Assembly (NCBI RefSeq): GCF_009911795.1
Contig: NZ_CP047898.1
Location: 62,001-126,000, forward strand
Length of the DNA: 64,000 nt
DNA from: Pseudarthrobacter psychrotolerans
GTDB taxonomy: Bacteria > Actinomycetota > Actinomycetes > Actinomycetales > Micrococcaceae
Direction of reading: 5' to 3'
Part shown: piece by piece, positions 4,400 to 64,000 of the stretch
Numbering within the stretch: the stretch's first letter is position 1
How the letters are laid out: every line of letters begins with the position of its first letter
Program-made: the position numbers and the translations under genes
Notes under the pieces: model-generated
Seen by the model: only the letters and a program-made list of their open reading frames with translations
What the model was told of the DNA's origin: nothing
Database searches by the model: none

Positions 4400-5264
4400 A
4401 TCACCGCGGAAATCTGCGGAAAATCCACGCGTCATTCTGGACGCACGGGACGTCGTCGTGGAATACCCATCCAAGGGATTCAGACGGCCACCATTCCGGG
4501 CTCTTAAAAGTGTCTCACTCGACATCCGGCCGGGGGAAACCGTTGGCCTGGTTGGCGAATCCGGATCCGGCAAGACCACCTTTGGACGCGCCATTCTGGG
4601 CCTGGCTCCCGTGGCTTCAGGGAGCATTAAGTATGACAACCAGGAGCTGGTAGGTATGGCCAAGGCCGACCGCCGGCGGTTGGCCGGAGAGATTCAGGTG
4701 GTCTTTCAGGACCCCTACACCTCCTTGAACCCTGCCATGGCGATCGCTGAGATCCTGACGGAACCCCTCATTGCGCAGGGAACCTCGAATGCCCAGGCAT
4801 CGGTGGAAGTTGCCCGTCTCCTTGACCAGGTCGGCCTGCCCTCTGATTCCGGCGAACGGCTGCCCAGGGAGTTTTCCGGGGGCCAGCGCCAGCGCGTGGC
4901 CATAGCGCGTGCGTTGGCTCTTAAGCCCCGGCTCATCGTGTGTGATGAGCCGGTGTCCGCCCTGGACCTCTCAACCCAGGCCAGGGTGCTGGATTTGCTC
5001 GTGGAGATCCAGGAGCGCACAGGTGTGGCGTACCTCTTTGTGTCTCACGACCTTGCAGTGGTGCGCCACATCAGCCACCGGGTAGCCGTGATGTACCACG
5101 GAGAGATCGTGGAATACGGTGACTGCGCACCCATCACAGAGAATCCGGAGCATCCTTACACCCGACGATTGTTGATGGCTGCGCCGGTGCCCGATCCGGC
5201 CGCGCAACGAAAACGAAGACTGGAACGCCAGCTACTCGTTGAGGCTGGAGCCCTGTCTGCCTAG
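4392..5264 (+). CDS. ABC transporter ATP-binding protein, OppF/DppF type
   Basis: Second ATPase of the importer, 290 residues, working as a heterodimer with the ATPase half of the upstream fusion. It has Walker [12 protein letters not shown], signature FSGGQRQRV, Walker B LIVCDEPVSALD and H-loop FVSHD. The frame is open further upstream, but the ATG at 4392 is preferred: it has a purine-rich site (GATGGAAGAGG) a few bases before it, overlaps the previous stop by eight bases, and begins right where homology to the family begins. The C-terminal oligopeptide-transport extension (HPYTRRLLMAAP) is present. Confidence 0.9.
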   Translation: MSKSPRKSAENPRVILDARDVVVEYPSKGFRRPPFRALKSVSLDIRPGETVGLVGESGSGKTTFGRAILGLAPVASGSIKYDNQELVGMAKADRRRLAGEIQVVFQDPYTSLNPAMAIAEILTEPLIAQGTSNAQASVEVARLLDQVGLPSDSGERLPREFSGGQRQRVAIARALALKPRLIVCDEPVSALDLSTQARVLDLLVEIQERTGVAYLFVSHDLAVVRHISHRVAVMYHGEIVEYGDCAPITENPEHPYTRRLLMAAPVPDPAAQRKRRLERQLLVEAGALSA

Positions 5265-7253: not shown

Positions 7254-7981
7254 CCTTCGGTGCGGAGCTCGTTGACCTCTCGCTGAGGGTCATCACCAGC
7301 CTGCTTTTGGGCGCCACCATAGGTTTGGAACGGCAATGGCGATCCCGGATGGCTGGAATCCGCACCAACGCGCTGGTTGCCGGAGGCTCCGCGCTCTTCG
7401 TAGTGATGGGTGCTTACTCCTTCGACGGCATTGGCGCAGATCCCACCCGGGTGGCCGCCCAGATCGTATCCGGCATCGGCTTCCTTGGCGCCGGTGTGAT
7501 CATGCGGGAGGGACTGAACGTCCGCGGACTGAATACCGCCGCAACGCTATGGTGCGCCGCAGCCGTCGGCTCATTGGCCGGATCAGGTCTCTACCTGATC
7601 GCAATCCTCGGGGCGCTGTGCATTGTTGGAGTAAACACACTCCTGCGCCCGGTGGGACGGATGATCAACCGGCATCCGCGGCGGGCAGCCGGAGACGTTC
7701 AGTCGACGGCCGACGTCGGCTATCTGCTCGAGGCAACAACCGACGGCGAGAGTGAAGGCATGGTGCGCTCCATGCTTGTACAGGCGATCAGCCGCCCGGG
7801 CTTCAGCTTGCAGTCGATGTCTGCCCGGGGCACCAAAAACGCGTTGGTCAAGGTACGGGCCGAGCTCTCCGCGAGCGTGGAGGCGGACATCGGCTCCTTG
7901 GAGAGAACCGTGCAACGCATGAGCCTGGATCCCAAAATTTACGCCGTACGTTGGCGTGCCGAAGACATTGAAGAGGAGTAA
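7250..7981 (+). CDS. MgtC/SapB family membrane protein
   Basis: A 243-residue inner-membrane protein. The N-terminal half has four or five hydrophobic helices with the family motifs (LLLGATIGLERQWR, GIRTNALVAGGSALFV, VSGIGFLGAGVIMREG, TAATLWCAAAVGSLAG). The C-terminal half (about 150-243) is a soluble ACT-like domain. The chosen ATG sits in ATGA with the GH3 stop, and GGAG lies six bases before it; a more upstream ATG would leave a non-homologous Arg-rich leader. MgtC proteins influence magnesium homeostasis and F1Fo-ATPase activity in other bacteria. Why one sits inside a glycan operon is unclear. Confidence 0.88.
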   Translation: MTFGAELVDLSLRVITSLLLGATIGLERQWRSRMAGIRTNALVAGGSALFVVMGAYSFDGIGADPTRVAAQIVSGIGFLGAGVIMREGLNVRGLNTAATLWCAAAVGSLAGSGLYLIAILGALCIVGVNTLLRPVGRMINRHPRRAAGDVQSTADVGYLLEATTDGESEGMVRSMLVQAISRPGFSLQSMSARGTKNALVKVRAELSASVEADIGSLERTVQRMSLDPKIYAVRWRAEDIEEE

Positions 7982-7985
7982 CACC

Positions 7986-9763
7986 GTGAAAGCCATTATG
8001 GTGATGTTCGATACGCTCAACCGCAAAATGCTGCCGCCCTATGGGTCAAGCAGAACGATTGCCCCCAATTTCGCGCGGCTGGCGGACCGGAGCGTTACGT
8101 TTGACAACTGCTACGGCGGCTCGATGCCCTGCGTGCCTGCCAGGCGTGAGATGCATACGGGCCGCTACAACTTCCTGCATCGGTCCTGGGGCCCATTGAA
8201 CCGTTCGACGACTCCGTACCTGAGATGCTCAAAAAGAGCGGTGTCTACACCCACCTGGTAACGGACAACAAGCACTACTGGGGCGATGGCGGCGCCACCT
8301 ACCATGGGCGGTTTAACACCTTCGAGTTTTTCCGCGGGCAGGAAGGGGATGCCTGGAAGGGGCAGCTGGCGGACCCTGAGATTCCCGAGACGGTGAACAA
8401 ACGCAGCGACCCCTTGTGGCGTCAGGACTGGATTAACCGTGGACATATGCAGGACGAGAAACAGCACCCGCAGACCCTGACCTTTGACGCGGGGCTTGAC
8501 TTCATTGGCACCAATAAGGACCAGGACAACTGGTTCCTGCAGATTGAAGCGTTCGACCCCCATGAGCCCTTTTTCAGCTACGACGTGTACCGCGAGCTTT
8601 ACGAAGAAGGGTACACCGGCCGGCACTTTGATTGGCCGATGTACAGGAAGGTCATTGAAAACGATCAGGAGTCTGCTCACCTGAAAAACGAGTACAACGC
8701 ACTCCTGACCATGTGCGACCGTTCCCTGGGGCGGGTCCTGGACGCGATGGACGAGAACGGGCTCTGGGAGGACACCATGCTGATGGTGTGCACCGATCAC
8801 GGGCTGCTGCTTGGCGAGCACAATTGGTGGGGCAAGAATGTTCAGCCGTGGTACGACGAAAACATCCACACACCATTGTTCCTGTGGGACCCCAGAAGCG
8901 CCGAAACTGCCGGACAGCGAAGGGCCTCGCTGGTGCAGACCATCGACTTCGGCCCCACTCTGCTGGAGTACTTCTCTGTGCCGGTTACGGCGGACATGCA
9001 GGGTGTGCCCCTGGCCAATACCGTGGCCAATGACCAGCCGGTGCGTGCTGCAGGGCTATTCGGCAACACCGGCGGCCACGTCAATGTCACTGACGGACGG
9101 TACGTCTATATGCGGGCCTGCGGAGACGAGTCCAATTCTCCGCTCTTCGATTACACACTGATGCCGATGCATATGCACGCGCTCTTCAGCCCGGCGGAGC
9201 TGCGCAACGCGGAGTTGGTGGAGCCCTTCACCTTCACCAAGGGGGCTCCGGTGCTGAAGGTTCCTGCGTTCAGCTTCGGAAACCCTTATGTCTATGGCAC
9301 CTTGCTGTTTGATTTGCAGACCGATCCGGCGCAGGACAACCCGTTGCGCGACAAGGACCTTGAGTTGAAGATGGCGACTTTGCTCCGTGATTGCCTCAAG
9401 GATTCCGATGCTCCAGTGGAGCAGTACGAGCGGCTGGCCTTGCCCGTCGAAGGGCCCCTGGGGGAGGAACACCTGCTGATCGACAAGCAATGGGAGCAGG
9501 TCCAGAAGTCCATGCGTCCGGCTCCGCTGAGCGGGCAACTGCCGGTGAATTCGCCGTTGGCGCAGCAGAATTTGTCAGATCTCTTCGAGGATGGGCGTAC
9601 CAAGGAGATTGTCTTGGCGTCCATTCCGTTCCTGGCGAATCCGTTCATCCTGATGATGGCAGGGTCAATGACCCTGGTAGAAATAGCCGCGATGAAGGCA
9701 GACATCACGCTGGAAGACCTGCTGGCTCTGGACGAGCTGATCGCAGTTCCGGCCGGGAGCTGA
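7986..9763 (+). pseudogene. Class I sulfatase, single-base frameshift near codon 70
   Basis: Arylsulfatase-family enzyme (alkaline phosphatase superfamily) hydrolysing sulfate esters. The N-terminal frame begins at GTG 7986 (VKAIMVMFDTLNR) and holds the sulfatase signature C-V-P-A-R, with Cys49 the residue converted to formylglycine. After the GGGGCCC run at 8188-8194 the protein continues in the next frame (IEPFDDSVPEMLKKSG, then metal-site HADs such as CTDHGLLLGEHNWWGKN). Adding one base in that run gives a continuous 592-residue protein of family length. The defect may therefore be a sequencing error, not a dead gene. The maturase gene lies 10 bases downstream. There is no obvious signal peptide, so a cytoplasmic sulfatase is likely. 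Confidence 0.85.
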
Positions 9764-9773
9764 CGGGGCAGGC

Positions 9774-10763
9774 ATGTCGGAGCAGAATTCGATGTGTTGC
9801 GGTGCCCGGTCCGCCACGCTGCAGCCAGTCTCTTCCGCCCTGCAATCGCGCTCACCTTCGAGGCGTTCCCCGACGGCGGCCCTACGGCCGAGGCTGCTGC
9901 CGCAAGTGTGGGTTCAAGGCGGGTCTTTCCTGATGGGGGACGCCTGGGGTGAGGGCTATGGGACCGACGGTGAACTTCCCTTGCACCGGGTCCGGGTGGA
10001 CAGTTTCCAGATGGACCAGACCCCCGTGACGGTCCAGGAGTTTGCCCGGTTTGTCGCAGACGCGGACTACCTTACGGTGGCGGAGCATCTGGGTAGTTCG
10101 GCCGTTTTCCATATGGCCTGCGCCGCAGAGCCGGAGGACATCCTGGGTTTCTCCAGGGAGACGCCGTGGTGGCTGACTGTCCGTGGCGCGAACTGGCGTC
10201 AGCCCTTTGGTGCCGCAGGCGCCCGCGCCGGGGACCCGTCGTCGGAGCTCAGCGAGCATCCGGTGACTCATGTTTCATACCGGGACGCGGTGGCCTACTG
10301 CCTTTGGGCGGGGCGTCGCCTGGCCACGGAGGCCGAGTGGGAGTTCGCGGCCCGCGGCGGTTTGGAAGGTGCCCGCTATCCATGGGGCAATGAGCTGATG
10401 CCGCATGGCGAAACGCAGTGCAAGATCTGGCAGGGGACGTTTCCCTGGAACAGCACACACCCGCATGGGTCCATGGCTACCGCGAAAGTCAGCAGCTACC
10501 CGCCCAACGACTATGGCTTTCATGACATGGCCGGGAACGTCTGGGAATGGTGCCAAGACTGGTTTTCACCGACGTTTTATGGCGAACCGGCAGCCTCCCG
10601 GGCCAACCCGCTGGGCCCTGGCCGCGGCGAAAAGAAAGTGATGCGAGGGGGGTCTTATCTCTGTCACGAGTCCTACTGCAACCGCTACCGGGTAGCCGCG
10701 CGCAGTTCAAGCCTGCCAGACTCCTCCAGCGGGAATCTTGGCTTTAGAACGGTTGCCCTGTAG
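9774..10763 (+). CDS. Formylglycine-generating enzyme (sulfatase maturase, SUMF1 family)
   Basis: A 329-residue copper-dependent oxidase that converts the sulfatase active-site Cys to formylglycine using O2. FGE-sulfatase domain spans about residues 45-329: MDQTPVTVQEFARFV, RLATEAEWEFAARGG, GNVWEWCQDWF and the C-terminal redox pair Cys297 and Cys302 in LCHESYCNRYR. The first 45 residues are low-complexity and may not be translated from this ATG; an internal start is possible. Its position directly after the only sulfatase in the window identifies the likely client. Confidence 0.9.
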   Translation: MSEQNSMCCGARSATLQPVSSALQSRSPSRRSPTAALRPRLLPQVWVQGGSFLMGDAWGEGYGTDGELPLHRVRVDSFQMDQTPVTVQEFARFVADADYLTVAEHLGSSAVFHMACAAEPEDILGFSRETPWWLTVRGANWRQPFGAAGARAGDPSSELSEHPVTHVSYRDAVAYCLWAGRRLATEAEWEFAARGGLEGARYPWGNELMPHGETQCKIWQGTFPWNSTHPHGSMATAKVSSYPPNDYGFHDMAGNVWEWCQDWFSPTFYGEPAASRANPLGPGRGEKKVMRGGSYLCHESYCNRYRVAARSSSLPDSSSGNLGFRTVAL

Positions 10764-40995: not shown

Positions 40996-42519
40996 GTGCA
41001 ACTGGTGGCATACCTGAAGGGTGAACGCGTCGATGCCACGCAGATGGCGCACGAACCGTGGCGGGCCTTGGTGAATCACCCTGACTACCCAAGCCTGACG
41101 CTGATTGAGTGCGGCCTACGTGCCAGCCGGGTAACACGACGGGGCAGACAGTTTTTCAAGCACTATCCAGACATTGAGTGCCCCATCCAGCACAAGTCTG
41201 AGTCAGCTCAGCACCTGGCCATGAAGCAGGCACTGAAAAACAGAATCAATGCGATGCCCGAGTGGCGCGCTGAGGTGGAGCATGCGCACCCAGGACGGGT
41301 TTGGATCGCTGACGTCATGGCTACCCATGCCAGCGGCAAGCGCCTCGCGTTCGAGGTACAGCTGTCGCCGCAGAGTGAAGACGAGTACATTCGCCGGTCC
41401 CAGCGTTATGCAGACGATCGCATCAGGGCGGTGTGGGTCGTCCCCGACAACCTCGACTGGTTCCGGGTTCAGATGCCGATGATCGTTACGGGCTTCGGCA
41501 AAACCAGCGACCTGCCCGGGACGCCCGGATCACTTATGGACTTGGCCCACCACCAGCCGCTAGTCGGCAAGAGGGCATCCGTGGGGGCAGCAGTGGACGC
41601 TGTCCTGGATCTGGCTTTCCAGTGGCCGCACGGAACGCCAAAACATCAGCTGGACGAGATCGCCAGACTGGAGCAAATGAAGGCAGAAGCGGCCGCTGAC
41701 AAACAGGCACGGGCAGGCGAGGCTGCGGAACTGAGGCGTCTGGCAGAGGCTGAGACAGCGGCCCGGTTCATCGCGGCCGCAGCAGCTCCGGGGGCCTCTG
41801 CGGCGCGGCCGGTCCTCGCTGCCAAGCGCACCTGGGCCAGTGAAGTTCACTGCTTGACTGGCGGTCATCCCATGCTGATCTGGCGGCTGACGAAGCCGGC
41901 CCCGGAGCGGGCGTCCAGTGACCCCATGTGGCGACCTACGATGGAGAACTTCGACAACGTGCGTGCTCACGTGGATGCATGGTTAGCCGCGGCCGGTAGC
42001 AGCTTGGCAAAAGCGATGGTCTATAAGGTGAAGGGCTGGCCTGTACGCCGGACGTTCGTGTGCCCCGAATGCAAGCAGATCATTCAGGGCCGATGGGTGT
42101 CCGCGCTACCACCCGAAAAGTGGACGCTCATCGCAGAAGCAAGCGCTGCCAGTGCTGAGGCCCGCGACATGCTGCACCGAAAGCCGCCCACTCAACCATC
42201 CCACTTTTCAGAGGAGCCACGACCGGCACGGCTGCCCGTGCAGGTCGAAGAGAGCGACTGGAGGTTCATCGGCCCACGTCGCAAACCGTACTGGATGACC
42301 GAATCGGGTAGCGAGGAACTGCCTTATCGCTTGGCCGCCAAGAAGGCCCATGCTGAACGAATGGAGCAGCTCAGAGCAAACCCCCGGTACCGCGTCAGCC
42401 CTAACGGATTCCGCTTTGAGTGCACAGATTGCGGAGGAGAGTTCGAGGACGACAAGGAGGGCATCCATGCTGACAGGGGTTGCGTCACCCCTGGCACCCG
42501 CAGCTTCGGCTGGCGGTAA
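40996..42519 (+). CDS. CoiA-like competence/nuclease-domain protein
   Basis: A 507-residue protein from GTG 40996 with GGGGGAG upstream. Residues 85-150 form a restriction-endonuclease-like CoiA domain (VWIADVMATHASGKRLAFEV followed by QLS, then RRSQRYADDRIRAVWVV), giving an Asp and Glu-X-Gln core. The middle (215-270) is an Ala/Glu-rich probable coiled coil. Two later zinc-ribbon pairs appear (CPECKQ near 355 and CTDCGG near 475). CoiA is needed for DNA processing in natural transformation; CoiA-like proteins are also frequent in actinobacterial accessory regions, where their role is unknown. Followed 52 bases on by the putative OGG-fold gene. Confidence 0.75.
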   Translation: MQLVAYLKGERVDATQMAHEPWRALVNHPDYPSLTLIECGLRASRVTRRGRQFFKHYPDIECPIQHKSESAQHLAMKQALKNRINAMPEWRAEVEHAHPGRVWIADVMATHASGKRLAFEVQLSPQSEDEYIRRSQRYADDRIRAVWVVPDNLDWFRVQMPMIVTGFGKTSDLPGTPGSLMDLAHHQPLVGKRASVGAAVDAVLDLAFQWPHGTPKHQLDEIARLEQMKAEAAADKQARAGEAAELRRLAEAETAARFIAAAAAPGASAARPVLAAKRTWASEVHCLTGGHPMLIWRLTKPAPERASSDPMWRPTMENFDNVRAHVDAWLAAAGSSLAKAMVYKVKGWPVRRTFVCPECKQIIQGRWVSALPPEKWTLIAEASAASAEARDMLHRKPPTQPSHFSEEPRPARLPVQVEESDWRFIGPRRKPYWMTESGSEELPYRLAAKKAHAERMEQLRANPRYRVSPNGFRFECTDCGGEFEDDKEGIHADRGCVTPGTRSFGWR

Positions 42520-42571
42520 CTATGACAGCCGCCTGCCTGTCAATGTCAGCCAGCCCACGTAGAGTCATCCC

Positions 42572-43282
42572 ATGATCAACGAAAATGCACCGTTGCCCGA
42601 TGACATTTTCGCGAAACTCCCCGGCGCTACTGCTGTGATGAGCCACGCGGTATCCGTGGATAGTGATCGATGGCAGCGCGCCTTTACTATTCGTGGCTTA
42701 CCGCCAGCCGATGGGAAGCTCGGCAGCGCGCAGCATATATCGGTGACCCGCAAAGAAGTATTCGACCTTGGGGATCAGGCTCCGACAGTCGCGAACGCCT
42801 TCCAGTTGCTCTATTACTCTCTGGCTTGGGGCTTGGGCACCCGTGCGCCACGGCTCCACCAGCGGCTGGACAGCTTAGCTGCCCAGGAAGAAAACGCGGG
42901 CCAGCTTCTCCTGGACGCATGGACCTTGGTTAGGGACGGAGCGCCTACTGGTGAGGCATACTGCACCCTCACCAGTAATCGAGGCGCTGGACGAATCCCT
43001 TGGTTTGGGCCGGCGTTCTCAACTAAATTCCTGTACTTCGCACAAGGCAGCGCTGCGCGACCACGACACGTAATCCTGGATCAGGTAGTCGCCAAGAATC
43101 TGCGTCCGGACGCATGGCCACAAGCGCCAACGGCAGGTTGGTGGCCAGAGACATACGAACGGTACGGCCGGTTGCTTGACCGTTGGGCGGACCAAGCAAC
43201 CGAACGGCTCGGTACGGCACGACGGGTCCGAGCGGACGAGATAGAGCTAACTCTCTTCAGACGTCACCGGTCGAACGGATAA
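42572..43282 (+). CDS. Putative OGG-fold (8-oxoguanine glycosylase-like) protein
   Basis: A 236-residue soluble protein. The segments FQLLYYSLAWGLGTRAPRLH, LTSNRGAGRIPWFGPAFSTK followed by FLYFAQG, then VILDQVV and DEIELTLFRR resemble, from memory, bacterial proteins annotated as having an OGG glycosylase fold. The GRIPWFGPAFSTKF stretch would be the helix-hairpin-helix-like region with a conserved Lys. No iron-sulfur cluster Cys. Assignment is tentative. It follows the CoiA-like gene closely and may be co-transcribed with it. Confidence 0.5.
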   Translation: MINENAPLPDDIFAKLPGATAVMSHAVSVDSDRWQRAFTIRGLPPADGKLGSAQHISVTRKEVFDLGDQAPTVANAFQLLYYSLAWGLGTRAPRLHQRLDSLAAQEENAGQLLLDAWTLVRDGAPTGEAYCTLTSNRGAGRIPWFGPAFSTKFLYFAQGSAARPRHVILDQVVAKNLRPDAWPQAPTAGWWPETYERYGRLLDRWADQATERLGTARRVRADEIELTLFRRHRSNG

Positions 43283-48917: not shown

Positions 48918-50897
48918 CTAGGTTCCTGGATCCGAGACAAACCACAGATCACTTATGTTTGCGTCATCACTGTGTGGCCGCGGATTTGCGTCTCGTACAC
49001 GGAACGTAGTGGGCACGTTGACGGAGCTCCCGAAGATCAGGGCATGCTGCTTGGGCAGCGAGGGCAGACGTTTCAGGACATTTTCGGAGATGAACGGCGT
49101 CATCTGCCGAATATGAGACAAGTCTTCGGGGTTCTGGATTCGGTGGACTACGAAGTTCGAACACTGGGAAAGGACCGTCTTGGAGAGCTCGCTCGGTCTT
49201 TGAGAGGCAAGAGTGATGAACAACCCGTACTTGCGTCCTTCTTTGGCGATTCTCTCGAACACGGGGGTCGCGTCGACAGCAAATAGGGAGGGTGTACTGC
49301 CGATGTAGCGGTGTGCTTCCTCGAGGATTATGTTCACAGGCGTAGTGTTGCGGCGCTTGGTGCGACGGAGCTTTTCAAAAATCAGACGACCTACGATGGC
49401 GGATGCAATTTGGACGATCTCATCTTCGACTTCGTTCATGTCGATAATGGTGATTTGCGATCGAGGGCTTGCAGTTTCGCTGGAAAAGGATCCTAGCAGT
49501 CGCTCCACGAAGGCTTCTGTAGACAGCTCGTGTGGGTCGAGGCCGGCGGGGGCGGGTCGCATGAAATGGAAATCTGGGCGATCACGCACGGAGTTGAATC
49601 GAGTGATCAGGGACGAGCAATAGTCTCGGATTTGTTTGTTCCCATGTGACTCTTCGTAGAGGATCGCCAGGCTCAGCGCCTCGCCGAGGTGGGTAAAATC
49701 AAACGGGCTGTTGTCATACTCAGGGAAAACAACCTCATCGAGGACCTTAGATTTTGCAAAGGCTGCCAGTGCGTCCTGCTTGGACATCTGGCCATAAGAG
49801 ACGGCGAGAAAGCTGTCAACCGAATCCCTGGAAAAGTGCGAGCTCGAATAATTCGCGAGCATTCCACGGATTCGAGTTACAGCTGACGGCGCTCCGTCGG
49901 CCTGCTGCAAAACTGTGAGGACGGCTGTGCCCAGAAGATGAGATTTGAGCTCGTCGACTTCCGGATTCTGCTTTTCGCCCTTGTGCTTGGAGAACAGACT
50001 GGTCAGCCCGAGAGCCATGCGCAGAACGGGAAGTTGGGTGCGATCGCTGGCCCGTAATAGCATGGCCCATTCGTCTATGGTCATGAACCAGTGTGGGAGC
50101 CTGAGCTGCAGGCGACCTTCGCCCGCAGCCTCGTGGCCGAGGTCCACGCTGGTCGAAACGTCACCGCTGATAGGGGCATAAAGCCGGCGAATCGGTTCAG
50201 GGAGCTCCGTAAAGGCGCGTCTATACTCACCGTTTGTGTCAAGGATGATGAAGCTGGCACCGCGCGCCGGGTGCGCATCGGACTTCTCGAAAACGGACTG
50301 AAGTATGGCCGCTACGGTGCATGACTTGCCACTCCCAGTGTTTCCGAGAACGGCAGAATGGCCACCGAAGAACTCATTCACTCGTACCTTGACCTGGTAG
50401 TCATCGAAGACCACCGAAGTCCCGATGGAGAAGGCTTGCATCTTCGTCGCACCGGTGGGATCCCCATCGATCTGGGCGTTATTTGTTACATCCAGAATCC
50501 TGTCTAGGTCCTCCATCTGGGTATAGAGAACGTCTGAGAACAAAGCCGGATACACAGATAGACCGAATCTGAAGGGCGCAGAATCTTCGAAAGGCAGTGT
50601 GCCAAGTGGGACTACGTCCAAGAACTTGGTCGACGCCAAGAGATGGCCGTCGTCGAACTTGAGATCGCTACTTCCTGCATGCGGTCTTTCGCTGTCACGA
50701 AGGCCAATGATTTCTGCGACCGCATATTCGTCTTGCAAGGGGATGAGGACGAATGAGCCGATCCTGGCTACATAGTGTTGGCCGTCGAAGCCGACCAGAG
50801 TGAAGCCATCAGCATTCGAGTTCAGTTCGACGGTAAAGCGGTCGGCGGTGACGAACGTGATGCGCCCGAGTGAGCGACGACGGTCCAGCCGGCTCAC
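48918..50897 (-). CDS. HerA-like ATPase of SIR2-HerA defence
   Basis: A 659-residue FtsK/HerA-family ATPase. An N-terminal HAS barrel (about 1-110) precedes the RecA-like core: Walker A at 184-193 in LGNTGSGKSCTVA, Walker B with acidic pair in NIILEEAHRYIG, then ITLASQRPSELSKTVLSQC and HIRQMTPFISENVLKRLPSL. It forms hexameric rings in homologues. Its GTG start overlaps the SIR2 stop (GTGA). Together they form the known two-gene SIR2-HerA antiphage system, where HerA controls the NADase. Confidence 0.88.
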   Translation of the reverse strand: MSRLDRRRSLGRITFVTADRFTVELNSNADGFTLVGFDGQHYVARIGSFVLIPLQDEYAVAEIIGLRDSERPHAGSSDLKFDDGHLLASTKFLDVVPLGTLPFEDSAPFRFGLSVYPALFSDVLYTQMEDLDRILDVTNNAQIDGDPTGATKMQAFSIGTSVVFDDYQVKVRVNEFFGGHSAVLGNTGSGKSCTVAAILQSVFEKSDAHPARGASFIILDTNGEYRRAFTELPEPIRRLYAPISGDVSTSVDLGHEAAGEGRLQLRLPHWFMTIDEWAMLLRASDRTQLPVLRMALGLTSLFSKHKGEKQNPEVDELKSHLLGTAVLTVLQQADGAPSAVTRIRGMLANYSSSHFSRDSVDSFLAVSYGQMSKQDALAAFAKSKVLDEVVFPEYDNSPFDFTHLGEALSLAILYEESHGNKQIRDYCSSLITRFNSVRDRPDFHFMRPAPAGLDPHELSTEAFVERLLGSFSSETASPRSQITIIDMNEVEDEIVQIASAIVGRLIFEKLRRTKRRNTTPVNIILEEAHRYIGSTPSLFAVDATPVFERIAKEGRKYGLFITLASQRPSELSKTVLSQCSNFVVHRIQNPEDLSHIRQMTPFISENVLKRLPSLPKQHALIFGSSVNVPTTFRVRDANPRPHSDDANISDLWFVSDPGT

Positions 50898-52180
50898 GAC
50901 TCTTTCCGATTTGGGTCGGAAAGGTCATGGCGGACGAGATTCTCCAGGATGTTTTCGATTGCAGTCTGTGCTTCGTCCGGCGCCTCCGCGGGCATCAGGT
51001 CATCAACGATGTTGTTGAAGTAGTGAGCCTTCCACTCGGCTTGTGGTTCCTGTGTCCCTATGATCCAGATCCGTGGATCGTTCAGACGGCGGAGTCTTGC
51101 GATGCCCTCGTTCGCACTGGGATCTACGAATGCAATGAGGCGGAAGGTCGGAATAGTTAGCGCCTGGAAAATGATGTTGTTAACGTGTTCGTCGCTGAAG
51201 CTATACCCGGCTGTGATGAGAGCGCTCTGCTCCCGCACGACTCGCGTCTGGAATTCTCTGAACATGTCTGAGTACGGAGAAGCGAAGCTTGCGTTCTGCT
51301 TAGCCGGAGTTGGGTAAATGAGCAGACTCTCGGTCTTGAGCAGCTCTGGATGTGTCTCGATGACCGGAAACAATCCGCTCGGGCGTGATTCCCAGCTAAC
51401 TGATCCGTGGAGCTTGGCAAAGTAGACGAGACTGTCCACGGAACTCCATCTGCGGCCGGCTAGGTCAAGCTCCTCGGCAATAGTCTGTCGGAACACCGCT
51501 GGGTTGAATCGTCGCTCGACTGACCCCTGAAACCCGTTAATGTACGGAATCCCCAGCCGGTCCATGGCAGTCTCGTTGAACAGGTCGTAATTCGTGGTGA
51601 AGACCCAGGGGCGAGGAAGGGTTCGGTCGCGTTGGATCAGCTTCCGATAGAACGATTGGTATGTGTCCACGACAGTAGTGTCTGGAGTGCCTTCACCGGT
51701 CGTGCTGAAAGCTCCGTTAGTGCAGGACATTCGAACGTGTTCGGCGATCGATCGTATTAGGTCCTCGACAAGCCTCAGGCCCTCCTGAAACTCTGATTTT
51801 GAGCTGGAGCTAAGTGCAAACCGAAAACCGAACAGAACTTCCATAAGCGCTTCGAGATTTGAGACGAACCGCTCTTCTGTCAGGTCCAGTCCCAGTATCT
51901 CCTTGGCCTGCTGCCGCTGAGATTCCGATATTGCAGACTCACCGTCAATCGGGGAAAATAACGCCTTTGCCATTGGCCCCATAGTCGGGATGCCTACCTC
52001 TTTCCCGCCACTCCAAGCAGATGAACATCCCGACCCAAAGAGAAAAGCCAGATTCTTGGACTTGAGAACGTCCCCGAGGTCCTTTTTGACTCGGGAAATA
52101 GGGGAGCGCTCTGGCGACGTCCCATCGAGGCCTGCGGCGACGTCGGTCGACCCTTTGTAGAAGGCGAGCTGCTGGTTCAT
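50894..52180 (-). CDS. SIR2-domain NADase effector of SIR2-HerA defence
   Basis: A 428-residue protein from ATG 52180; further upstream codons belong to other DNA. The SIR2 fold is visible: LAFLFGSGCSSAW (NAD-binding Gly49-Ser-Gly), FTTNYDLFNE (195-204, conserved Thr-Asn-Tyr-Asp) and KLHGSVSW with catalytic His258. In characterised defence systems this domain destroys NAD+ after phage sensing and aborts infection. It lacks the zinc-binding Cys of deacetylase sirtuins. First gene of the two-gene operon. Confidence 0.85.
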   Translation of the reverse strand: MNQQLAFYKGSTDVAAGLDGTSPERSPISRVKKDLGDVLKSKNLAFLFGSGCSSAWSGGKEVGIPTMGPMAKALFSPIDGESAISESQRQQAKEILGLDLTEERFVSNLEALMEVLFGFRFALSSSSKSEFQEGLRLVEDLIRSIAEHVRMSCTNGAFSTTGEGTPDTTVVDTYQSFYRKLIQRDRTLPRPWVFTTNYDLFNETAMDRLGIPYINGFQGSVERRFNPAVFRQTIAEELDLAGRRWSSVDSLVYFAKLHGSVSWESRPSGLFPVIETHPELLKTESLLIYPTPAKQNASFASPYSDMFREFQTRVVREQSALITAGYSFSDEHVNNIIFQALTIPTFRLIAFVDPSANEGIARLRRLNDPRIWIIGTQEPQAEWKAHYFNNIVDDLMPAEAPDEAQTAIENILENLVRHDLSDPNRKES

Positions 52181-52251
52181 ATGCGTATTATGCCTTGCAT
52201 GTGACGTCACGCCGGGATTGCCGACCCAAGGCTGTCGAACTCTTAGCATTC

Positions 52252-52834
52252 TCAGGTATTCGTTACGCGCGCGGAGTCCGTTGGACAATGCGGTACAGTG
52301 CTGCGGGCCACCTTGAACAGCTCGGCGATTTCTGCGGTGGTGTGTTGTCCTCCTTTATATAGGGAGACGAGGCGGGCTTCCTGGCTCTTGGAAAGCTTTG
52401 GCTGCTTCCCCGCGAAGCCGGCCTTTGACTTTGGCAACCTGCATGTCCTCGCGGGCACAGATGATGTCGGACTCGAATTCGGCGACCATGGCCAGGACGT
52501 TGAAGAGCAACCGGCCGACGGGGTCGGTCACGTCGTGGACGGATCCGCCGATGCTTAGCTTCACTTCCCGTTTAGTGAGATCTTCGATGATGTCCCTCGC
52601 ATCCGGCAGCGATCTCGCGAGCCGGTCGAGCTTGGTGACGACCAGGGTGTCGCCGGCCGGGACGGCGGCAAGGGCCTCGCGCAGGCCCGGGCGCTCCTTG
52701 TTCCTGCCGGCCAGCCCGTGGTCGACGTAGACCCGGTCATCCGGGTCGCCGAGGGCGACGAGTCCGTTCCGCTGCGCTGTGAGGTCCTGGTCGTTCGCCG
52801 AGACACGGGCGGAGCCGATGATGTGCGCTTTCAT
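52252..52834 (-). pseudogene. Serine resolvase, frameshifted
   Basis: The catalytic domain runs from 52834 (GSARVSANDQDLTAQRNGL, nucleophile Ser12; VVTKLDRLARSLPDARDIIE; VLAMVAEFESDIICAREDMQ). At the four-base run 52408-52411 the homologous continuation (GKQPKLSKSQEARLVSLYKG, then TTAEIAELFKVARSTV) moves to the next frame, which one base less would restore. The very C-terminus after ARSTV is also abnormal. The catalytic part is intact, but without the HTH it would not act. It lies just before the SIR2 gene. Confidence 0.75.
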
Positions 52835-60109: not shown

Positions 60110-60874
60110 CTACCAAACGCGGATTTCCCATGCCTCCGTGACGGTGGCCAGCGCAGATTCCCTGGGAGAGATTTCCTCCCCGGAGGCTGCCTCGGCAACC
60201 TCCGTCAAACCAAGATCAGTTCGTCGCATCCAGTAGGCCCAGCAGATCCCGTTGCCTACCCTGGACTTAAATCTCACACCCGCCAGTTCACTGCCGTCAT
60301 CCAAAGTGACGCCACGCAGCCACTCAGCAATGCGCGTGGTGACATTGCGGTCGTTCGAGAATGCGGCTGCCCTGTCGACGGCCTCCAGTCCCGTGAAGGG
60401 CTTGATATCGGCCGCAGGACCCAGTGACAACGCGTCGAGAGTGGCCTGATCTTCCATATCCACCCACATTCCCGCATTCTCTGGGACGTCGATCACGTGT
60501 TTCAGGCGCTCGTCTCGCCAGGAAAAGGGAAGATGACCAGGCTGCATATGACCGAGACGGTCAAAGTCGGCCTGAATCTCCTTCATCACTTCCTCTGGGG
60601 TGATACCCCACAGTGCGGCCAGTTTTCCAAGCTTTTTCTTATGGCTCGGCTTCATCCGGGCCCAAGCCAGGCACTCCCTAAATGCGGTTTCAAGTGTGTC
60701 CGCGATGTAGATGGTGCGACCAGGGGTGTCCCAGCGGCTCCAATCATCCCGCGGCTCCCCGTCTTGGCGCTTCTCAGGATTGAGCGCCCCGTAGGTTACG
60801 GTAGCAATCCTGTGTCCGGAAACCGGGCCAGGGACCAATGCCAGGCCGGTTGTTCCGCAAATACGGGGGATCAA
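60110..60874 (-). CDS. RES-domain toxin (second system)
   Basis: A 254-residue RES-family protein. GHRIATVTYGALNPEKRQDG, SRWDTPGRTIYIADTLETAF with the following RECLAW Glu, and the late region GVRFKSRVGNGICWAYWM correspond to the Arg, Glu and Ser parts of the NADase site. TTG start overlaps the antitoxin stop (TTGA). It is distinctly different from the toxin at 48113 but follows the same order (GPVS, GALNP, D-W-R-W-DTPG-TIY), so the two are homologous systems gained separately. Confidence 0.82.
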   Translation of the reverse strand: MIPRICGTTGLALVPGPVSGHRIATVTYGALNPEKRQDGEPRDDWSRWDTPGRTIYIADTLETAFRECLAWARMKPSHKKKLGKLAALWGITPEEVMKEIQADFDRLGHMQPGHLPFSWRDERLKHVIDVPENAGMWVDMEDQATLDALSLGPAADIKPFTGLEAVDRAAAFSNDRNVTTRIAEWLRGVTLDDGSELAGVRFKSRVGNGICWAYWMRRTDLGLTEVAEAASGEEISPRESALATVTEAWEIRVW

Positions 60875-61254
60875 CCCGAAAAACCTCCGGTAAGCATGGC
60901 ATTAGCCGCAACACGAACATCTTTGAAGCGGCCTTCCATTATCGCCTCAACGGGTGAATCCTCATCTAGCCATGGGTTTGAACCGATGAACCACAGCCGG
61001 GCCACGTGCTCTCCGTGTGCATCGGAAAGCTCTGTCCACAGCCGGATTGCTGACATGAGCCGGCGAACGGCGGCCGCGTTGGGCTCAGGCCCTTCGTCCT
61101 TTGCCCACTTGTGAGAAATGCGGCGGTCCTTGCTGCCGGTTAGGCCTGCGACCAAGGTTGGCCCAAGGCCGTTGTTGAGTCGGCGAACAATCTCCCGTAT
61201 GCCCAGCTCATTTGTGCGAACGGCGGCGGTGCCCACGGTTGCGTCGATGGACAT
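60871..61254 (-). CDS. Xre/MbcA-type antitoxin (second system)
   Basis: A 127-residue antitoxin from ATG 61254, with AAGGGAG upstream. NNGLGPTLVAGLTGSKDRRI, SHKWAKDEGPEPNAAAVRRL, and FIGSNPWLDEDSPVEAIMEG match the antitoxin of the first system (GLSGVKDPGQVRKWARGD; SINPRLGYESPIKAIRED). It precedes and overlaps its toxin. The final Gly-rich tail should insert in the toxin active site, as in known complexes. Confidence 0.8.
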   Translation of the reverse strand: MSIDATVGTAAVRTNELGIREIVRRLNNGLGPTLVAGLTGSKDRRISHKWAKDEGPEPNAAAVRRLMSAIRLWTELSDAHGEHVARLWFIGSNPWLDEDSPVEAIMEGRFKDVRVAANAMLTGGFSG

Positions 61255-61519
61255 TTCAACTCCCTTGGTCGGTTGTGAATCCAACGATACCACCGCAAAG
61301 AGCTATACAAGCTACATGGAAGCTACAAAGAAGAGCCTTGCCATTAGTCGCCCCAGCCCTTTGGTGAGCGTGGTCGATGACGTGGGCCGCGGGATTACGC
61401 GTCCGACGAGGTGTGGGGTGAAGGCGCGAGTTCGCATATGCCGACTGCCGTCCGGGCCCGCAACGGGCCTCTATCCCTGACGCCGTTCCTCTGCGTGTGT
61501 TGCATCGCCCGGAAGGCCG

Positions 61520-62098
61520 TTAGTCACCGACTCGTGCCGCAGCGTACTTCTTTGCCGCGCGGGCCGCCATGACGCGCGGCCCTTTCATTTGCATCTGGGC
61601 AAACTGGGTGCTGACGTTGAAAACTTGGGCGACCTTTTCGTTGTCCCAGCCTTTGTACGCAGCTCGTCGTGCAGCAATTTCCGGAACGAGGAGCTCTCCG
61701 GAGAGGTAGGTGGCCTGTTTTTCCATCGCCGGATCGAACTGGCGTTTGTGATCCTCTCCCAGCAGCACCCCGCTAAATTCGTGCTCCAGGAGAAAATGGC
61801 CGAGTTCATGAGCGATGCTGGAGCGCCGTCGCGCAGGAACATGTGTTTCGTTTTCTATGATGATCCGGGCCGATCCGATCGGCACAAGGGCTGCGGACCA
61901 GGTTGCGGTGCTCACTGAGGTGAAATGCAGGACCGCCCGTGAGGATGCTCCAAACGACCGCAGGGACTCGACCGTATATACGTGAACCCCATGCTCTTCG
62001 CACAGCGCGTAAGGGTCGAGGGCTTCGTAATCGCCAACTCCCAAGCTGCCGCGTTCGTCCCTTGCCAGCTCCCGCATATAGTTCTGTGTCACTCGCAC
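61520..62098 (-). CDS. ImmA/IrrE-family metallopeptidase
   Basis: About 192 residues (start uncertain: GTG 62098 or 62092, or ATG 62077). The zinc motif HExxH is in SSIAHELGHFLLEHEFSG, and the third ligand Glu is probably in MEKQATYLSGELLVPEIAAR. Such proteases cleave partner XRE repressors to derepress mobile or defence genes (ImmA-ImmR, IrrE-DdrO). The upstream XRE gene ends five bases before the first GTG (62098). Confidence 0.85.
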   Translation of the reverse strand: MRVTQNYMRELARDERGSLGVGDYEALDPYALCEEHGVHVYTVESLRSFGASSRAVLHFTSVSTATWSAALVPIGSARIIIENETHVPARRRSSIAHELGHFLLEHEFSGVLLGEDHKRQFDPAMEKQATYLSGELLVPEIAARRAAYKGWDNEKVAQVFNVSTQFAQMQMKGPRVMAARAAKKYAAARVGD

Positions 62099-62102
62099 GT
62101 CA

Positions 62103-62477
62103 TTAGCCTCTAGCTGCAGCCTCAGTTCGGAATCGGTGCGCCGCCGCACCGATGAGTTGCTCGAGATAGACGACGTCTTCCTCTTTGAGATCACGTCTTG
62201 CTCTGAGGAGCGGGGCAAGGGCAGCTACAAGCTCGGGCTCTTCTGCGGTCTCTTGGTTGGTGCCAACATAAAAACTCTCCGCCGGCATCCTTAGCCACGT
62301 CGTCATCCTGGCAAAGGCAGACAGATCAGGTTTCAGCCCATTCGCAATACGGGACAGCGTCGATGGGCTTACTTCCAGTTCCTTGGCGAGTTGTCTCCAT
62401 GACAGCGACTGCTCGTTTCGAGCCGCATCGAGGGCGGCATATAAGACCTTGACGTCTACTCCAGGTGCATGGTCCAC
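62103..62477 (-). CDS. XRE-family repressor paired with ImmA/IrrE
   Basis: A 124-residue protein from GTG 62477 with AGGAG upstream. HTH at residues 17-60 (SWRQLAKELEVSPSTLSRIA, GLKPDLSAFARMTTWLRMP). The C-terminal part (EPELVAALAPLLRARRDLKE, DVVYLEQLIGAAAHRF) is helical and probably holds the dimer or cleavage region. Divergent from the ubiquitin-like gene with two palindromic sites in between; likely ImmA-cleaved repressor of that operon and its own. Confidence 0.87.
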   Translation of the reverse strand: MDHAPGVDVKVLYAALDAARNEQSLSWRQLAKELEVSPSTLSRIANGLKPDLSAFARMTTWLRMPAESFYVGTNQETAEEPELVAALAPLLRARRDLKEEDVVYLEQLIGAAAHRFRTEAAARG

Positions 62478-62498
62478 AGGTACTCCTAGGTCGGGTTG

Positions 62499-62554
62499 CT
62501 CGACATGTCGAACACTGTTAGTCTAACGCTAGAAGATGTTCGACATATCGAACA
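62499..62554. promoter_or_regulatory. Two palindromic operators between XRE-ImmA and Ubl-ThiF
   Basis: Site 2 (62537-62554) is TGTTCGACATATCGAACA, with 7-bp perfect arms TGTTCGA and TCGAACA. Site 1 (62499-62514) is CTCGACATGTCGAACA, the same motif with one weaker arm. Centres are 40 bases apart, close to four helical turns, so cooperative binding is plausible. They sit within the divergent promoters. Confidence 0.7.
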
Positions 62555-62601
62555 TCGTAATAGATTAGGAGCACCTACGTGGTGTTCGGAATGGAGAAGC
62601 A

Positions 62602-62865
62602 ATGGCTCAGGAGAAGCAGGACAACGGCCACGCAACGGAGATCTACGTCAATACCCGCCCGCACACCTGGAACGAGAACAAAATCTCGTACTCAGAGCTC
62701 TTGGCCCTCGCCTTCCCTGGCGAACAAGTAGGCGAGCAGGACACCGTCACCATCCGCTACAGCCGTGGAAACAATGGCAACGGAGCCGGTTCGCTCACCA
62801 ACGGCCACGATGTCAGCGTGAAGAAGGGAATGGTCTTCGATGTCGTCCGCACGTCTCGTTCGTGA
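62602..62865 (+). CDS. Single-domain ubiquitin-like protein (multiubiquitin family)
   Basis: An 87-residue protein. After a short polar leader comes a beta-grasp pattern like the bacterial multiubiquitin domain: TEIYVNTRPHTWNENKISYS, ELLALAFPG, VTIRYSRGNNGNG, VSVKKGMVFDVVRTSRS. Only one repeat is present and the C-terminus does not end in Gly-Gly, so processing or a different conjugation chemistry would be needed. The next gene, an E1-like enzyme, overlaps it by 26 bases. Prokaryotic Ubl operons with E1-like partners are linked to phage defence (Bil, CBASS type II and related). Confidence 0.7.
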   Translation: MAQEKQDNGHATEIYVNTRPHTWNENKISYSELLALAFPGEQVGEQDTVTIRYSRGNNGNGAGSLTNGHDVSVKKGMVFDVVRTSRS

Positions 62866-64000
62866 CCCTGACCTCAACCGCCTCCTCGACGACGGGTACG
62901 ACGTCGTTGTCGAGGAGGGGCACCTCATAATCCGGCAGCTGCCGTTCGTGAACGAGGCAAAAGAAATCAGCTACGGATTTCTGACGTACCCCGTCACCGT
63001 TACCGGGGACCGCGTCGTCTCAGGTACCGACCATAGGATCTGGTTTGGTGGCGGGACCCCGAGCGATGAACACGGAGACAGACTGCCGATGGCCACCCCG
63101 GAAATTCACGTCATTTCCGGCGGCCGCCAGGCGGGCTACATGCTCTCAAGCAAGCCCGGCCCCACGGGCTATCCGGACGAATACGCAAAGGTCACTTCCT
63201 ACGCCCAAATGGTCTCGCACCCGGCCCAGGCACTAAACCCTTCAGTAACTCTGACGCCAGGAGCAGCATGGCAAGAGGTAGGAAGTGACAACCCCTTCAA
63301 TTACTTGGACACTGCGTCATCAAGAGCTGGCCTAACGGCACTGAATTCATGTTTTGAAAACCAGGTCATCGCAATCGTGGGCCTGGGAGGAACCGGAAGC
63401 TACATTCTCGATCAGATAGCCAAAACCCCGGTGAAGAAAATCCTCCTCATCGACGGAGACACCTTCGAGAACCACAATGCCTTCCGCGCTCCCGGTGCAC
63501 CGACCCTCCAGACGCTACGAACAAGACCCATGAAGGTTCAGTACTTCGCCGACATCTATTCCCAGATGCACAGGGGCGTTACCCCTGTCCCACTGTTCCT
63601 GGACGCAGAAACAACCCATGTCCTGGACGAAGCCACGTTCGTGTTCGTAGCAACGGACGATGCTGTCACAAAGCAGGAAATCACTGCCTATCTGGAAAAA
63701 CGCGACACTCCCTTCATTGATGTTGGTATGGGCATCGAAGAAGTGGATGGAAGACTTACTGGGCTACTCCGCGTTACGACCAGCCTTCCCGGCCAGCGAG
63801 ATCACGTCCACCAGATGAACCGCATCCCAGGGCCGGCCCCAGAACGGGATGACTACGCGCGCAACATCCAGATCGCTGATCTGAACGCTCTCAACGCTCA
63901 GATGGCCATCATGCGCTGGAAGCGGCACCTGGGTTTCTACGCCGACCTCACCAATGAAGGCTTCACGACCTTCGCGGTCGCCGTCAACGAAATCACCAAC
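62840..64000 (+). CDS. ThiF/E1-like adenylyltransferase with N-terminal domain (3' partial)
   Basis: 387 codons from ATG 62840 to the window end, still open. N-terminal region (about 1-150: RLVRDPDLNRLLDDGYDVVV, LIIRQLPFVNEAKEISYGF, FGGGTPSDEHGDRLPMATPE) resembles the DUF6791-type domain found before ThiF. The E1 domain follows: nucleotide loop AIVGLGGTGSYILDQIAK (about 175), acidic motif LLIDGDTFENHNAFRAPG, and VFVATDDAVTK with IDVGMGIEEVDGRL. It should activate the C-terminus of the preceding ubiquitin-like protein with ATP. The catalytic Cys and any further operon genes (E2, protease) lie beyond the window. Confidence 0.8.
   Translation, partial: MSSARLVRDPDLNRLLDDGYDVVVEEGHLIIRQLPFVNEAKEISYGFLTYPVTVTGDRVVSGTDHRIWFGGGTPSDEHGDRLPMATPEIHVISGGRQAGYMLSSKPGPTGYPDEYAKVTSYAQMVSHPAQALNPSVTLTPGAAWQEVGSDNPFNYLDTASSRAGLTALNSCFENQVIAIVGLGGTGSYILDQIAKTPVKKILLIDGDTFENHNAFRAPGAPTLQTLRTRPMKVQYFADIYSQMHRGVTPVPLFLDAETTHVLDEATFVFVATDDAVTKQEITAYLEKRDTPFIDVGMGIEEVDGRLTGLLRVTTSLPGQRDHVHQMNRIPGPAPERDDYARNIQIADLNALNAQMAIMRWKRHLGFYADLTNEGFTTFAVAVNEITN

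Follow-up and report, generated by a model that had tools for sequence, protein, structure and literature searches.

Among the bacterial operons in which a ubiquitin-like protein (Ubl) is paired with an E1-like enzyme, the closest described class is operon type 6e, where the E1 carries an uncharacterised N-terminal "domain X" in place of JAB. Two companion proteins are encoded with this E1: a Ubl protein built of between one and three repeats, with a single Ubl in one species, and a small protein that binds metal. The class is presented as sporadic and mobile (Iyer, Burroughs and Aravind, 2006; PMC1779556). Regulatory neighbours have been described as well. For 70% of PF14452 proteins the adjacent locus includes a member of COG2856/DUF955 (Kopfmann, 2016; PMC4963859). 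CapW or CapH with CapP stands beside 219 of 544 Bub operons, with single-stranded DNA (ssDNA) activating CapP, which then cleaves CapH (EMBO J, 2026; PMC13373217). The locus considered here is a Ubl, E1 and DUF6527 operon at the right-hand end of a 64,000-nucleotide stretch of the genome of the soil bacterium Pseudarthrobacter psychrotolerans, referred to as the window (C1:62001-126000 of the 5.17-Mb genome, G000). It is probably a stress-inducible, E2-less Ubl modification operon of the DUF6791-E1 class, corresponding to type 6e with "domain X", and a relative of Bub.

A preliminary description of the window, made from its letters, had proposed a Ubl and E1 operon facing a divergent XRE-ImmA pair, with a single Ubl domain, no terminal Gly-Gly and a DUF6791-like N-terminus on the E1. 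Each of these is borne out by the family matches, strands and termini collected in Table 1, with the Ubl and E1 genes overlapping by 26 nucleotides. It had also suggested reading beyond position 64000, and in the extended sequence the E1 gene stops at L002:4016, after 391 residues, overlapping the DUF6527 gene by 4 nucleotides; the operon's open reading frames include no E2 or JAB gene. Taken together, the end of the E1, the overlapping DUF6527 gene and the convergent acetyltransferase gene that follows define the operon as Ubl-E1-DUF6527. DUF6527 lies directly 3' of the E1 in 83 of 86 Ubl-bearing fetched loci, and two operator-like palindromes occur where 0.04 would be expected, so that the arrangement goes beyond chance.

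Table 1. Features of the operon, its divergent regulators and its surroundings (window positions unless otherwise given).
Feature	Position	Strand	Evidence
ImmA/IrrE-type M78 metallopeptidase, CapP-like	61520..62218	-	Peptidase_M78 E 1.8e-19; motif HELGH
XRE-family helix-turn-helix (HTH) repressor, CapH-like role	62103..62477	-	HTH_3 E 3.6e-8 (Pfam)
Operator-like palindrome TGCTCGACATGTCGAACA	62497..62514		
Second operator-like palindrome, core of GATGTTCGACATATCGAACATC (62535-62556)	62537..62554		
Ubl, one Multi_ubiq domain, 87 residues, C-terminus RTSRS	62602..62865	+	PF14452 E 2.9e-13 (Pfam)
E1-like enzyme, DUF6791 + ThiF, 391 residues	62840..64000, on to window-equivalent 64015	+	Pfam
DUF6527 gene, 133 residues	L002:4013-4414 (window-equivalent 64012-64413)		PF20137 E 1.6e-21
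GNAT acetyltransferase, next family-matched open reading frame past DUF6527		convergent	Pfam (sequence extended past window)
SIR2 and HerA pair	48918-52288	-	PADLOC E 5.3e-187 and 2.8e-266
RES-domain gene and adjacent small open reading frame	60110-61293	-	
CoiA-type nuclease-domain protein, then OGG-like glycosylase-family protein	40996-43282	+	

Relatives are numerous and widely spread. An alignment of five sequences, run against GTDB representatives, returned at least 575 relatives among 596 pattern matches; the 80 loci retained are the best-scoring of these and not a random sample, and their titles place them in actinobacteria, proteobacteria, cyanobacteria, Bacteroidota, planctomycetes, acidobacteria, Chloroflexi and others. 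Among nearby genomes a match was found in five of 199, the strain's own included, which indicates an accessory operon; one of the five holds only a 49-residue ThiF stretch (G068, E 1.2e-4) and another a broken copy (G056). DUF6791 was present in three of 396 genomes of a phylum sample, again counting its own, and the closest E1 among the matches listed from named genomes is that of Arthrobacter sp. Soil762 (94% identity). The earlier concern that homologues might lack the E1 neighbour finds no echo in the 90 fetched E1 loci: a Ubl lies beside the E1 in 87. Of the remaining three, L006 is a broken copy, and L093 and L095 break off at the end of a contig or within the E1 itself. Omission of these three and of L005, which is the same locus as L065, gives the 86-locus set, and a limit of less than 85% E1 identity gives a non-redundant set of 74, from which repeats such as L087/L091 are removed. 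These two are an identical contig stretch filed under two species (Pontibacter, Amaricoccus), probably through contamination in a public genome. The broken copy L006, from G056 of the same genus, has lost its Ubl and the N-terminal part of the E1, keeps the E1 core and DUF6527, and looks decayed; its divergent neighbour is of HTH/ImmA type, as judged by eye. Four IMG/VR viral contigs (L092-L095) carry E1 relatives, with Ubl and DUF6527 also on L092 and L094. A literature search, which covered few subscription journals or preprints, returned no mention of DUF6791, DUF6527, PRK06153, PF20137 or PF20590.

Two regularities of the class are notable, the C-terminus of the Ubl and the gene overlap. 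Across the 74 non-redundant loci the last residue is Ser in 73 and Ala in one, position -2 is Lys, Arg or Gln in all, position -4 is Thr in 69, and in none does Gly-Gly occur within the last six residues. An E1 start codon is found at exactly the 26-nucleotide overlap in 73 of the 74 (68 ATG, 3 GTG, 2 TTG). A preference for Asn/Asp and Val/Ala at positions -8/-7 could partly follow from this, because the E1 ATG is contained, in another frame, in the codons concerned; no comparable overlap-based reason is apparent for the terminal Ser. The window protein matches the PDB chain 9cd2 with an E-value of 3.2e-5 as a single sequence and 8.4e-15 as a five-sequence profile. The presence of this related chain in the PDB lends something to the idea that the Ubl acts by assembly, polymerising or signalling while the E1 and DUF6527 add or remove a C-terminal group that controls the process, and filaments of three-domain Ubls were reportedly described by Gong in 2025. 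The window Ubl, however, is a single domain, and among its 17 closest fetched relatives (L012-L028) the Ubl frame is of 133 residues or fewer in 14, the other three being over-extended starts as judged by eye; assembly is an unlikely mode of action. Over all fetched loci the open frames range from 84 to 456 residues, some being long only through over-extended starts and several of the longer ones containing two or three beta-grasp repeats, judged by eye.

The E1-like enzyme consists of an N-terminal PF20590 DUF6791 domain (E 4e-39, residues 10-158) followed by a PF00899 ThiF domain (E 4.7e-12, about residues 162-391), and the protein scores 392.8 bits against the NCBIfam model NF004805 (PRK06153 models), whose cut-off is 352. 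The ThiF domain has intact adenylation motifs and no conserved Cys. Within DUF6791, residue 65 is an invariant His. Ten positions on, at residue 75, 56 of 68 relatives have Cys, where the window enzyme has Ser. Adenylation of a C-terminus need not lead to a protein conjugate: in MccB, ThiF and MoeB it serves to form an adduct or a carrier. By analogy, the Ubl might not be conjugated to proteins at all, its adenylation by the E1 yielding a small-molecule adduct or a carrier and DUF6527 processing the product. This is unlikely, since in profile comparisons the nearest solved structure to the E1 half is BubCD (E 7e-11), ahead of MccB (2e-5) and MoeB (7e-4), and since the two or three beta-grasp repeats seen by eye in many Ubls of the family would be odd for a carrier.

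The third protein, DUF6527, appears to be metal-binding. In 66 of 66 sequences Cys37, Cys41, Cys76 and His79 are invariant, and these are the predicted ligands, forming a C-x3-C pair and, 34 residues later, a C-x2-H pair. His35, Cys39, Ser68 and Ser78 are further invariant residues.

A search for E2 and JAB partners was carried out with models trained on six sequences each, taken from sister operons and chosen by position and by eye. Held-out matches numbered four for the E2 model and two for the JAB model, and five of the six E2s were recovered in a leave-one-out trial. Pfam itself places three of six sister E2s above its cut-off and finds JAB in three of four sister proteins, all below cut-off, while the six-sequence E2 profile matches PDB BubB at E 3.8e-13. 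Neither model found a match within the fetched DNA of any of the 90 DUF6791-type loci, the window's own included, although the absence is weaker near those loci that are short at contig ends. In 19 further whole genomes no E2 was found with PF14462, a model that exceeds its cut-off in only three of the six sister E2s. Multi_ubiq was also found at 11 places without DUF6791, all but one of which entered the fetched set, the exception being G380, a weak match interrupted by a stop.

A second Ubl operon is present in the same genome (L109/L110, G000:C3 about 7689-9933). Its Ubl carries Multi_ubiq in two stretches and ends in VGGVA, the middle gene, between Ubl and E1, encodes a 126-residue protein that is E2-like by position and has no Pfam match, and the ThiF-type E1 bears a JAB motif; upstream lies a divergent HTH regulator with HExxH. 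Since the strain thus encodes a Multi_ubiq, E2-like and JAB-motif E1 operon, the window Ubl could in principle be conjugated in trans with the help of this E2-like protein. Such borrowing is very unlikely, given the lack of E2 matches at the 90 loci and, with the noted shortfall of PF14462, in the 19 whole genomes; furthermore, the two Ubl C-termini are unlike, and the C3 gene, besides lacking a Pfam match, was the one missed in the leave-one-out trial. The co-occurrence of the two operons in one strain nonetheless provides a natural side-by-side comparison.

Upstream of the operon, the organisation points to a regulatory switch. The listed ImmA start is a TTG at 62218, which gives a 116-nucleotide overlap with the XRE gene, and most of 13 aligned relatives start near residues 37-45 of the window protein; on both grounds the true start probably lies near 62095. 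The protease matches the PADLOC capP model (E 7.2e-13), and a 14-sequence profile places PDB 7t5t, CapP, at 4.2e-8, ahead of IrrE proteins at 3e-4 to 5e-4. The XRE protein matches the capH model weakly (E 0.025). Between the divergent genes lie the two copies of TGYTCGANNNNTCGARCA, the expectation of 0.04 applying to the window at one mismatch or fewer. This motif, which was defined after palindromes had been inspected in 16 of the loci, occurs nine times in seven of the 86 loci (six besides the window's), always upstream of the Ubl, and is absent from the remaining 944,603 bases of the set. Another double site resembling it is found at L124 about 5133-5187 (G000:C1:4623132-4623186), by a hipB/hipA-like pair named by eye.

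The preliminary description had called for a survey of homologue neighbourhoods for the XRE-ImmA pair, and the pair recurs in part. Upstream sequence of 2 kb or more was present for 78 loci. In 56 of them an M78 protein bearing HExxH, whatever its orientation, lay no more than 3.5 kb upstream (four of these proteins being of about 1,130 residues), with XRE also present in 37, while 18 loci had neither. The M78 count agrees with the 70% given in PMC4963859. That paper proposes a toxin-antitoxin role, under which the XRE-ImmA pair would merely stabilise the cassette (Kopfmann, 2016). Such a role is most improbable here, as the region separating the divergent genes contains operator-like palindromes, which relatives have in the same place, and the nearest solved protease is CapP.

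Under the favoured reading, a stress-inducible operon for E2-less Ubl modification, the XRE protein would shut the divergent promoters by binding the two TGYTCGA-N4-TCGARCA palindromes, until ssDNA, arising from DNA damage or phage replication, activated the CapP-like protease and the repressor was cleaved. The Ubl and the E1 would then be translated in a coupled manner through their 26-nucleotide overlap, with DUF6527 next. The E1 would adenylate the carboxylate of the terminal Ser of the Ubl, without Gly-Gly, and the Ubl, positioned by DUF6791, would pass from the acyl-adenylate to a protein nucleophile, with neither a conserved Cys of the ThiF domain nor an E2 taking part. Finally, DUF6527, through its predicted metal site and with its other invariant residues (His35, Cys39, Ser68, Ser78), could complete or reverse the transfer. 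What the sequences themselves show is the gene content and order, the overlap, the C-terminal signature, the intact adenylation motifs, the operator-like sites and the lack of E2 and JAB matches nearby; all of the chemical steps, the ssDNA trigger and any role in defence are inferred. As a more tentative possibility, the DUF6791-E1 operons may constitute a separate and widespread form of tagging, free of thioester and E2, in which a Ubl with a near-invariant terminal Ser, an E1 without a catalytic Cys and no E2 or JAB are combined with DUF6527, of no recognised fold and with its extra Cys39, as transferase or remover. Were the chemistry as outlined, at least hundreds of bacterial species, considering the at least 575 relatives, would possess three-gene tagging that dispenses with an E2, an E1 Cys and a terminal Gly. 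With a single Ubl domain, the version found in the window (87, 391 and 133 residues) is small enough for in vitro reconstitution, which would test what parts of the ubiquitin cascade are dispensable, and the operator-like sites with the protease offer a ready reporter for the trigger.

The surroundings had been called defence-rich and mobile. From a scan of ten further open reading frames of the window with Pfam and seven with PADLOC, this description is borne out in part, by the SIR2 and HerA pair, two resolvases, an IS4/5-family transposase and the RES-domain gene. The small open reading frame adjacent to the latter has a weak match, below cut-off, to an Xre/MbcA/ParS antitoxin C-terminus (E 0.097), and the two are perhaps a toxin-antitoxin pair. 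The CoiA-type and OGG-like proteins showed no PADLOC match at E 0.001.

Several known systems can be set against the window operon. CBASS with Cap2/Cap3 has a CD-NTase gene within its operon. In Bil (BilABCD) the genes for Ubl and E1 are accompanied by those for an E2 and a JAB protein, whereas the window operon shows neither of the latter by the models used, which were built from Bub-type proteins and not from Bil. CapH and CapP are resembled in the placing of an XRE repressor and an M78 HExxH protease beside a putative immune operon, with CapP as the best PDB match, but the window repressor barely matches the capH model. With the C3 operon a Multi_ubiq Ubl, a ThiF-type E1 and an upstream HTH regulator are shared, the differences being the extra E2-like gene, the JAB motif and the Ubl terminus. 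The likeness to Bub (Citrobacter BubA-BubB-BubCD) lies in an E1 half homologous to BubCD and a Multi_ubiq-type Ubl. The N-terminus of BubCD is one that we take to be a JAB domain; the window operon has DUF6791 where sister operons have a JAB-like domain, and no BubB-like gene, and with both lacking it is not Bub in the narrow sense. DNA-damage regulators beside Bub operons (PMC13373217) form a further likeness.

The closest correspondence remains with the domain X branch of type 6e, and we identify DUF6791 with "domain X" and DUF6527 with the "Y" protein of that account. The metal-binding protein described there has the pattern C-x3-C-x35-38-H-x2-C, against which the second pair of DUF6527, C-x2-H, is in reversed order. 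The XRE-ImmA pair, the 26-nucleotide overlap and the T-x-[KRQ]-S terminus, all features of the present operon class, do not figure in the parts of PMC1779556 compared. A non-JAB N-terminal domain on the E1, one to three Ubl repeats and a small Cys/His protein are common to both, and in those parts the gene content shows no difference. The preliminary description had matched the arrangement to no named system; on this comparison, the window operon belongs to a kind already described (Iyer, Burroughs and Aravind, 2006).
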